DNA of 64,000 nt from Hydrogenophaga sp. (GTDB lineage Bacteria; Pseudomonadota; Gammaproteobacteria; Burkholderiales; Burkholderiaceae_C): contig NZ_JADMKB010000027.1 in assembly GCF_018780075.1 (NCBI RefSeq), forward strand, positions 62,001 to 126,000. Direction: 5' to 3'. A model generated the notes under the pieces. It was given only the letters and a program-made list of their open reading frames with translations, was not told the origin of the DNA and searched no databases. A program made the translations under genes and the position numbers. Each line of letters starts with the position of its first letter. Within the stretch, counting starts at the first letter, position 1. Of this stretch, positions 339-3,928 are shown one piece after another.

Positions 339-1187
339 ATGGCACAACTCATCGGTGGCCTGGCCACATCGCACATCCCCGCCATCGGCGGCGCCATCCA
401 CAAGGGCCTGCAGAACGAGCCTTACTGGAAACCCTTCTTCGACGGCTTCCCGCCGATCCACCAGTGGCTGGGCAAGGTCAAGCCCGACGTGGTGGTGGTG
501 TTCTACAACGACCACGGCCTGAACTTCTTCCTCGACAAGATGCCGACGTTTGCGGTGGGTGCCGCCGCGACCTACAGCAACGCCGACGAGGGTTGGGGCA
601 TTCCCACACTGCCGCCGATCCCGGGTTGCCCGGAACTCTCGTGGCACCTGATCAATGAGCTGATCGCCAAGGAATTCGACATCGTGACCTGCCAGGAGAT
701 GCTGGTGGACCACGCCTGCACGCTGCCGTTCAAGCTGTTCTGGCCCGAGCACGCCGTGGCGCCGGTGCAGATCGTGCCGATCGACATCAACACGGTGCAG
801 TTCCCGTTGCCCACGGCCAAGCGGGTCTACAAGCTGGGCAAGGCGGTGGGCGAGGCGATTCAGAGCTGGCAGAGCGACAAGCGCGTGGCGGTGATGGCCA
901 CGGGCGGTCTGTCGCACCAGCTGGATGGCGAGCGGGCGGGTTTCATCAACAAGAAGTTCGACCTGCAGTTCCTGGACAGCATGGAAACGAACCCCGAGTG
1001 GGCGACGCAGTTCAGCGATCTGGAACTGGTGGAGAAGGCGGGCACGCAGGGCGTGGAGTTGTTGATGTGGCTGGCGATGCGGGCGGCGCTGACGGCCGGT
1101 GGTTCGGGGGTGCGCAAGGTGCACAGCAATTACCACATCCCGATTTCGAACACCGCTACCGGGGTGTTGGCGCTGGAGGCGGTCTGA
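339..1187 (+). CDS. ligB: Protocatechuate 4,5-dioxygenase beta (catalytic) subunit
   Basis: 282-aa class III extradiol dioxygenase subunit carrying the non-haem Fe(II) site. H12 (ATSHIP), H59 (NDHG), H193 (GLSHQ) and E240 align with H12, H61, H195 and E242 of Sphingobium LigB, so the metal ligands and catalytic base are all present. The length is normal for the family. The start is set by AGGAG 8 nt upstream of the ATG. It is the last gene of the operon: a hairpin terminator lies 30 nt past the stop. The substrate is most likely protocatechuate; gallate or methylgallate activity cannot be excluded from sequence. Confidence 0.95.
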   Translation: MAQLIGGLATSHIPAIGGAIHKGLQNEPYWKPFFDGFPPIHQWLGKVKPDVVVVFYNDHGLNFFLDKMPTFAVGAAATYSNADEGWGIPTLPPIPGCPELSWHLINELIAKEFDIVTCQEMLVDHACTLPFKLFWPEHAVAPVQIVPIDINTVQFPLPTAKRVYKLGKAVGEAIQSWQSDKRVAVMATGGLSHQLDGERAGFINKKFDLQFLDSMETNPEWATQFSDLELVEKAGTQGVELLMWLAMRAALTAGGSGVRKVHSNYHIPISNTATGVLALEAV

Positions 1188-1216: not shown

Positions 1217-1239
1217 AGGGAGCCTTTGGCTCCCTTTTT
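1217..1239 (+). terminator. Intrinsic terminator of ligAB
   Basis: Perfect 8-bp stem AGGGAGCC / GGCTCCCT with a TTT loop, followed by a T run. It lies 30 nt downstream of the ligB stop. Confidence 0.85.
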
Positions 1240-1258
1240 CGTTCTGGCTTTTGTGCGG

Positions 1259-1360
1259 GTGCCGGGAGCGTCCGGTATCCGACTCCGCGAATGTCCCCCG
1301 GCGGCGGGAGGCCGCCTCCTCCTTTATTTCGCTGCGTCGGACACCGAACGCTCCCGGCAC
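1259..1360 (-). repeat. Stem-core element, copy 1 (core read on minus strand)
   Basis: 25-nt inverted arms (1259-1283 and 1336-1360, two mismatches) enclose a 52-nt core. Read on the minus strand, the core starts GCAGCGAAATAAAGGAGGAG, holds a small GC hairpin and ends with CCGGGGGACAT..GCGGA. The same core, reversed, occurs in copy 2 inside completely different arms. No protein-coding signal is visible. The element lies between the ligB and rpoD terminators, outside both transcripts as predicted. Confidence 0.7.
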
Positions 1361-1407
1361 CGGCCGCAACGTTGGTGTGCTCACGCAGGCGTACCTTTCC
1401 GCAGGCG

Positions 1408-1513
1408 TCTCGCAGAGGTGGGGCGCACTGCGCAGCGAAGTAAAGGAGGAGGGTCCGGCCGCAGGCCGGGGCCGGGGGACATGAGCGGAGCAGTGCGCCC
1501 CACCTCTGCGAGA
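1408..1513 (+). repeat. Stem-core element, copy 2 (core read on plus strand)
   Basis: Perfect 24-bp inverted arms at 1408-1431 and 1490-1513 enclose a 58-nt core (1432-1489). The core begins GCAGCGAAGTAAAGGAGGAG and ends GGGGGACATGAGCGGA. Its centre is a different GC hairpin (CCGGCC-GCA-GGCCGG) from the one in copy 1. The two copies stand head to head, 48 bp apart. Arms and central hairpin vary but stay self-complementary; the flanking core is conserved. Confidence 0.7.
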
Positions 1514-1539
1514 CACACCACAAAACCCGGCGCACCAAA

Positions 1540-1564
1540 GAAAAACGGGAGCCGAAGGCTCCCG
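1540..1564 (-). terminator. Intrinsic terminator of rpoD
   Basis: On the minus strand: CGGGAGCC-TTC-GGCTCCCG followed by TTTTT, 28 nt past the rpoD stop. Confidence 0.85.

Positions 1565-1591: not shown

Positions 1592-3928
<2,337 letters not shown>

Follow-up and report, generated by a model that had tools for sequence, protein, structure and literature searches.

Paired outward-facing hairpins with a conserved purine-rich core in gene gaps of Burkholderiales and some other bacteria

The gap between ligB and rpoD in a 64,000-nt stretch of Hydrogenophaga DNA (the window) contains two head-to-head hairpins that face outward, away from each other. They belong to a widespread family, present in 78 of 141 sampled genera, that combines very strong covariation, a strand signal and selection in place with no match in the RNA library. 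Judged from sequence data, and with a little less than an even chance of being right, the family would be a nucleic-acid element that acts in cis through its structure, most probably as RNA, and is deployed as an outward-facing hairpin pair at gene ends.

The two copies in the window and their core

A sequence-only reading had described two elements at this site that share a core read in opposite directions. Both copies, their orientation and the common core were recovered, while the borders turned out wider (1258-1361 and 1407-1514) and the stems measured 26 and 25 pairs. The features of the site, in window coordinates unless stated otherwise, were as follows.

339..1187, plus strand: flanking gene ligB, LigB catalytic subunit of an aromatic-ring-opening dioxygenase (PF02900, E 4.4e-60)
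1218..1239, plus strand: terminator-like hairpin with a T run, downstream of ligB and not part of the element (by eye)
1258..1361, minus strand: copy 1 (left), whole element from outer stem to outer stem, the minus strand being the folded one
G000:C168:63256-63363 (contig coordinates): covariance-model match of copy 1
1336..1361, minus strand: copy 1, 5' arm of the outer stem, 26 nt, pairing with 1258-1283 (fold)
1316..1335, minus strand: copy 1, 5' half of the core, GCAGCGAAATAAAGGAGGAG, with helix strand GCGAA and a loop containing GGAGGAG
1300..1315, minus strand: copy 1, inner hairpin, variable but paired (fold)
1284..1299, minus strand: copy 1, 3' half of the core, GGGGGACATTCGCGGA, in which TTCGC pairs with GCGAA
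1258..1283, minus strand: copy 1, 3' arm of the outer stem (fold)
1362..1406, no strand: spacer between the twin hairpins, 45 nt
1407..1514, plus strand: copy 2 (right), whole element, the plus strand being the folded one
G000:C168:63404-63517 (contig coordinates): covariance-model match of copy 2
1407..1431, plus strand: copy 2, 5' arm of the outer stem, 25 nt, pairing with 1490-1514 (fold)
1432..1451, plus strand: copy 2, 5' half of the core, GCAGCGAAGTAAAGGAGGAG (core search)
1452..1473, plus strand: copy 2, inner hairpin (fold)
1474..1489, plus strand: copy 2, 3' half of the core, GGGGGACATGAGCGGA, with TGAGC opposite GCGAA, so that tandem G.A replaces two Watson-Crick pairs
1490..1514, plus strand: copy 2, 3' arm of the outer stem (fold)
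1542..1563, minus strand: terminator-like hairpin and T run after rpoD, outside the element (by eye)
1592..3820, minus strand: flanking convergent gene rpoD, RpoD-type sigma-70 factor (six Sigma70 families matched)

Both copies followed the same plan, in which the outer stem of 25 to 26 pairs leads through an internal loop, GCA/GGA, to a 5-bp helix, and this helix through a purine internal loop to a capping hairpin. The stem of copy 1 had 26 pairs on the minus strand, two of them G.U, and that of copy 2 consisted of 25 Watson-Crick pairs. The inner hairpin differed between the copies and was nevertheless paired in both folds, as had been noticed before. Folding of the core strand gave z-scores of -8.75 for copy 1 and -10.02 for copy 2, and none of 200 shuffles folded equally well. 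The earlier statement that the stems have no sequence in common holds loosely for the window pair; across 263 elements the inner arm showed a weak GGGTG at positions 11 to 7 from the core, and orthologous sites had stem arms in common. By eye, ligB and rpoD each possessed a terminator-like hairpin of their own between stop codon and element. As both copies therefore lie beyond these hairpins, transcription reaching them would be read-through.

The core reads GGNGGA, hairpin, GGNGGACA, and essentially only the two N vary. The four GG doublets kept each of their eight G in 130 to 132 of 132 distinct copies, and the A closing each half of the core was fixed in 131, but the copies were found via the core or a model of it, so that core variation is under-sampled and its conservation overstated to some degree. 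The middle bases varied (A 120, G 10, C 2 in one half; G 120, A 11 and one gap in the other), and so did the first A after the invariant T (A 107, C 24, G 1). One element found through its flanks (L323) still had a paired stem, a damaged loop and one GG doublet lost. Four fixed GG tracts with freer bases between them would suit a two-tetrad G-quadruplex, possibly held between helices. ViennaRNA gave no quadruplex in copy 2 and used another set of G in copy 1; its model forbids a hairpin inside a quadruplex loop. The octamer AAAGGAGG, a strong Shine-Dalgarno sequence, partly fits the earlier idea of a ribosome site, which leaves the equally fixed second half GGNGGACA unexplained. The binding motif of CsrA is GGA, and RNAs bound by CsrA carry ANGGA in a hairpin loop. 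In the element the conserved GGA motifs belong to an internal loop, where the leading GG of either half is just as fixed. Neither the Shine-Dalgarno nor the CsrA motif accounts for both core halves being equally fixed.

Covariation, folding strand and selection in place

A search with the 20-nt core, allowing up to three mismatches, detected 18 copies in the 5.39-Mb genome from which the window comes and none in the backward control. Although this search is blind to the stem, a long stem was seen by eye beside the core in 17 of the 18 copies, the remaining one (L017) being degenerate. Within the 18 copies 31 of 40 pairs had changed on both sides, and 87.7% of the cells were paired compared with 60.3% in shuffles. 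The larger alignment, which took 150 of 155 matches (the other five were left out), contained 132 distinct copies. In this alignment, which was fitted to the model, both-side changes occurred at 37 of 38 pairs, 91.2% of the cells were paired, and the covariation score was 0.79 versus about 0.1 in slid controls. The proposal of a structured element with a fixed core and a covarying stem was thus borne out. The stem is about 24 bp long; the paired share was 0.86 at position 23, 0.57 at position 25 and 0.30 at position 26.

For the helix and strand counts, nine of 272 unique elements with weak stems were dropped, which left 263. The types of the 5-bp helix were GCGAA/TGAGC (161), GCGAG/CGAGC (30), GCGAA/TTCGC (28), GTGAG/CGAAC (16), CGCAG/CGGAG (7), GCGGG/CCCGC (3) and others, these shares being biased because part of the set was drawn from an exact-pattern scan. 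Tandem G.A and Watson-Crick pairs substitute for one another in this helix.

The folding strand can be told from mismatches, since G.T on one strand is A.C on the opposite strand. In stem positions 1 to 24 of the 263 elements, which had been filtered for at least 14 of 20 stem pairs with G.T counted as a pair, the core strand had 473 G.T, 33 A.C and 168 other non-pairs. Among the 18 copies recovered with the core alone, 31 G.T stood against 8 A.C on the core strand, and a second site (G000:C93) gave ratios of 43:2 and 64:15. The large excess of G.T over A.C indicates that the core strand, which carries GGAGGAG, is the folding one. G.T pairs also stabilise single-stranded DNA, which is a point against the RNA reading.

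The second site is flanked by genes that we take to encode an aldehyde dehydrogenase-like and an extradiol dioxygenase-like protein. Of 60 genomes searched, 43 supplied the 44 loci that were read. By this reading both elements were present in 27 loci, a single one in 5, decayed remnants in 3 (L336, L337, L340) and none in 8. Over the final 80 codons of the gene upstream (28 loci) third positions were 66% identical and the other two positions 96%. The arms of the 27 left and 27 right elements were 55 to 63% identical, their loops 93 to 99% identical and their stems 94 to 96% paired, and double changes were found at 22 (left) and 21 (right) of 24 stem positions; these figures exclude the left element of L323, whose loop is damaged, and the right side of L332, where the element is missing. 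The arms have thus diverged as far as third codon positions while loops and pairing were kept, which argues for selection in place. Contrary to the suggestion that the element acquires or rewrites its stem, orthologous arms at two sites drift together by compensatory changes. It is highly improbable that the elements are functionless and that their arms are held complementary by template switching or by arm-to-arm conversion of the palindrome: palindromes are known to be corrected in such ways, but correction leaves no lasting bias of G.T over A.C and would not conserve the loop.

The rpoD site was also searched in 60 genomes; 30 loci were examined, of which 28 were readable, and all readings were made by eye. 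Each of the 11 loci showing the ligB end carried elements, namely nine pairs, one single (L264) and one chimeric remnant whose arms no longer pair (L262). One further locus had elements with a different upstream sequence (L258), two were cut by contig ends (L247, L254), and 14 loci with another neighbour had no core within 450 nt. By eye, L261 and L273 carried the whole pair in opposite orientation, so that it differs between species by an inversion that apparently lies between the terminators of the two genes; a symmetric device would be expected to tolerate this. At the second site the right elements of L309 and L313 seemed, by eye, to combine two arms of different lineage that meet within the core. 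Such arm swapping, as in L309, L313 and L262, leaves outer stems that do not pair and looks like damage. Single sites are dispensable, because sites get lost and three of 24 genomes of the genus had no match.

Spread, pairing and dispersal of the family

With the covariance model 21 copies were found in the own genome, arranged as eight head-to-head pairs and five singles. Matches were present in 22 of 40 genomes of relatives, including 21 of 24 of the genus, within which copy number ranged from 0 to 31 per genome. The family sample, for which stricter filters were used and at most 12 candidates were scored per genome, gave matches in 141 of 299 genomes and 78 of 141 genera; the many further copies that a covariance model had been expected to reveal in relatives were thus found. 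In wider samples, which added three families, matches were obtained in 18 of 399 genomes of the order sample (families f1, f13 and f21 only), in 4 of 369 genomes of the class sample, which added f63, and in 6 of 299 genomes of the phylum sample (f1 and f63). Among the matches listed by the exact-pattern scan were Hydrogenophaga, Rubrivivax, Rhodoferax, Variovorax, Aquabacterium, Methylibium, Caldimonas and Sulfurisoma, and, from the Lysobacter group, Lysobacter, Luteimonas and one Lysobacterales bin; f63 is probably this group.

Two possible carriers were rejected. The viral collection had no exact match to the pattern, which represents the main core type and does not cover window copy 1, whose core is of the ATTCGC type. 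Among plasmids the copy 2 query matched three records, all of them Variovorax replicons of 1.2 to 1.3 Mb typed as non-mobilizable. Several elements were located less than 200 nt from contig ends (G242:C300/C236/C278/C229, G035:C17/C24, G011:C2/C171/C27 and G344:C12/C241), as if the assembly had broken at the paired hairpins.

Head-to-head order was found in 147 of 156 distinct neighbour pairs, 120 of these 147 having at most 130 nt between the cores, and such pairs were also present in f13 and f63. Only two of the 156 neighbour pairs had the same direction. Spacer lengths, calculated for arms of 24 nt, were 40 to 49 nt in 52 of 80 distinct cases, and inspection of the spacers by eye revealed no conserved promoter. 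In three loci of f13 (L098-L100) the spacer between the twins held tandem units of about 33 nt, the number of which differed between genomes (by eye).

Gaps were classified from the gene orientations given by a home-made gene caller, and 40 of 183 units at contig edges were left unclassed. Pairs were assigned to tandem gaps in 49 cases, to convergent ones in 18 and to divergent ones in 4; the corresponding numbers for singles, many of which are pairs whose partner was missed by the strict search, were 40, 30 and 2. Gaps of at least 100 nt in the window comprised 20 tandem, 8 convergent and 9 divergent ones. Divergent gaps therefore held 6 of 143 classified units, compared with 9 of 37 gaps of at least 100 nt in the window. 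Of 410 elements, 8 had TTTTT within 60 nt beyond the stem and 62 had AAAAA there. An intrinsic terminator was rejected as an identity of the element, the T run being on the hairpin's strand in just those 8; the A runs fit terminators of oppositely directed genes.

A role in supercoiling, replication or recombination as a structure of the DNA itself, such as a cruciform or a G-quadruplex formed by one strand, appears improbable. This reading would suit the G-rich core and the strong hairpins, the position of several elements near contig ends and the recombination junctions seen by eye within the cores of L262, L309 and L313. However, RNA would more naturally show the 14:1 excess of G.T over A.C, and the avoidance of divergent gaps points to transcription.

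In four genomes, of which 19, 25, 12 and 7 copies were read, the average arm identities were 46 to 59%, with 82 to 88% for the best pair in each. Identical inner hairpins on arms less than 60% alike were met in 18 of 451 comparisons within genomes and in 3 of 1172 between genomes. An element of G011 had stretches of 102 to 107 nt with 86 to 92% identity elsewhere in G347, G348 and G356. Two of these places, both in G356 (L410, L411), were whole pairs that were 87% identical over 277 nt and had flanks without a match, so the pair was copied as a unit of about 277 nt; a third, in G347 (L412), was 80% identical to both over about 280 nt. The matches L410/L414, L409/L411 and L412/L413 extended along the flanks and hence represent three sites shared between genomes. 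Downstream flanks of the 3' arms contained GAGCGAA in 34 and CGCGAGG in 28 of 410 elements, whereas base shuffles gave 2.5 for either motif. The dispersed unit might thus extend 20 to 30 nt past the stem, in line with the copies of about 277 nt. The mobile hairpin considered in the sequence-only reading is supported, as regards dispersal, by the range of 0 to 31 copies per genome and by the G356 pairs.

A third site, in Hydrogenophaga genomes (L370-L398), lies between convergent genes that presumably are proC and ubiA. Twenty-four of 30 loci were readable on both flanks. Four had gaps of 22 to 43 nt (L382, L386, L393, L395), G011 had an ordinary pair, and 16 had gaps of 565 to 1558 nt. Intact hairpins stood at both ends of five long gaps (L371, L372, L384, L390, L398), at one end of five and at neither end of six. 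The genes between or beside the hairpins differed, and several scored as foreign by codon use. They included DUF2625 (L389), a trypsin-like protein below the cut-off (L371), and CcdB with a Phd-like protein, the latter below the cut-off, in three loci without intact hairpins (L374, L376, L387). L381 contained an AbiU2-type HEPN gene and no hairpins, and the cargo of L384 included an attC-like site by pattern. This site is an insertion hot spot, at which integron-type cassettes may have been captured. Among the loci examined, most of which reach 1.5 kb to each side, head-to-head pairs more than 300 nt apart occurred at the third site only.

Dispersal of whole pairs shifts some weight from a cis-acting RNA element to a non-autonomous selfish repeat of the REPIN or MITE type, in which the hairpin pair would be the substrate of a single-stranded-DNA transposase and only folding copies would spread. 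We consider this explanation rather unlikely. It would agree with the variable copy number within the genus, the whole-pair copies L410/L411 and L412, the genome-specific dialects of core and hairpin evident from the comparisons within and between genomes, the inverted dimers that avoid divergent gaps, as in REPs, and the patchy reach into f63. Across 17 genomes, however, Y1 transposase genes did not co-occur with the elements: Y1_Tnp was detected in three genomes without a model match (G004, G009, G016) and not found in three element-rich ones (G135, G142, G021), and the 10 Y1_Tnp loci examined of 15 matches had no element by pattern. As far as tested, a REPIN driven by a Y1 transposase was therefore rejected. 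Furthermore, resident elements keep loop and pairing while their arms saturate, which spread alone does not require, and no target duplication was established.

Proposed function and comparison with known systems

In the cis-acting element that we favour the molecule would be RNA, formed as a transcript crosses the gap. With twins facing outward, transcription from either side would produce a single sense copy shortly before the polymerase reaches the far end of the gap. The purine loop GGNGGA/GGNGGACA could then be a specific binding site for a protein, the ribosome or a ligand, possibly as a two-tetrad G-quadruplex, and the outcome might be control of gap crossing, for example of read-through, 3'-end processing or stability. 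A bolder version seems unlikely to us, namely that the family is an ancient natural RNA class of Burkholderiales and Lysobacter-like bacteria with a two-tetrad G-quadruplex in a long hairpin, whose outward twins at gene ends form a bidirectional RNA device, with one working copy exposed by transcription from each side, and whose stems drift freely.

No known Rfam RNA could be assigned. With Rfam release 15 there was no match at the gathering threshold in the window and five loci, where no score exceeded any family threshold, and no match at E<=5 in six loci. A literature search for an earlier description yielded only BRE and Burkholderiales-1 as possible candidates. As far as the published descriptions go, the family may coincide with BRE (2011) or Burkholderiales-1 (2010), and its novelty is stated with reserve.

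REP, BIME and REPIN sequences are, in the passages on their structure, extragenic palindromes, often dimers and among them head-to-head ones, with GTAG or CGTC tags and stems of 6 to 13 bp (GTAG) or 8 to 9 bp (CGTC); their G.T pairing was taken there as a hint of RNA function (PMC3733652). The present family resembles them in its inverted dimers (147 of 156 neighbour pairs) and differs in its stem of about 24 bp, its long conserved internal loop, the lack of a tag and the at most 31 copies seen. No near-invariant tetranucleotide was present at either foot (positions 24 to 32 of the 5' arm and 21 to 60 downstream).

BRE is described by Hot (2011) as a mostly intergenic repeat of Bordetella, Comamonadaceae and one Rhodocyclaceae strain with up to 29 copies, its units of 75 to 91 bp standing in tandem with few or no bases between them, and the bprJ region yields two RNAs with lengths of about 80 and about 200 nt, according to the passages on this repeat (PMC3110155). 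The part of a later paper dealing with bprJ, which lies in a BRE region, reports differential expression in an RNase III mutant (PMC8386462). Hosts and copy numbers, as given in those passages, overlap with those of our family, whereas the passages speak of tandem arrays and, in what they cover, of neither a fold, stem covariation nor head-to-head pairing. BRE-type tandem arrays, taken as direct repeats, were not met among our elements, of whose neighbour pairs 2 of 156 had the same direction. Burkholderiales-1 is listed by Weinberg (2010) as a candidate conserved motif of Burkholderiales, its table row giving the RNA status as "?" and no Rfam accession (PMC2864571). It shares with our family the host order named in that row, Burkholderiales.

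Integron attC sites are hairpins that fold from single strands and have a conserved core and a free stem, with RYYYAAC and GTTRRRY at their feet. The element is similarly a hairpin with a conserved core and a free stem; it differs in having no conserved GTTRRRY or RYYYAAC ends in the arm columns and in that its conserved part is internal. Fluorogenic aptamers of the Spinach type contain a two-tetrad quadruplex between helices and were selected in vitro. They share with the element the GG tracts in a purine-rich internal loop that is flanked by two helices, whereas the element is natural and its quadruplex a putative one. If the proposal is true, the family would provide a G-quadruplex that occurs in nature between two helices, or a device that works in both directions on transcripts crossing gene gaps.
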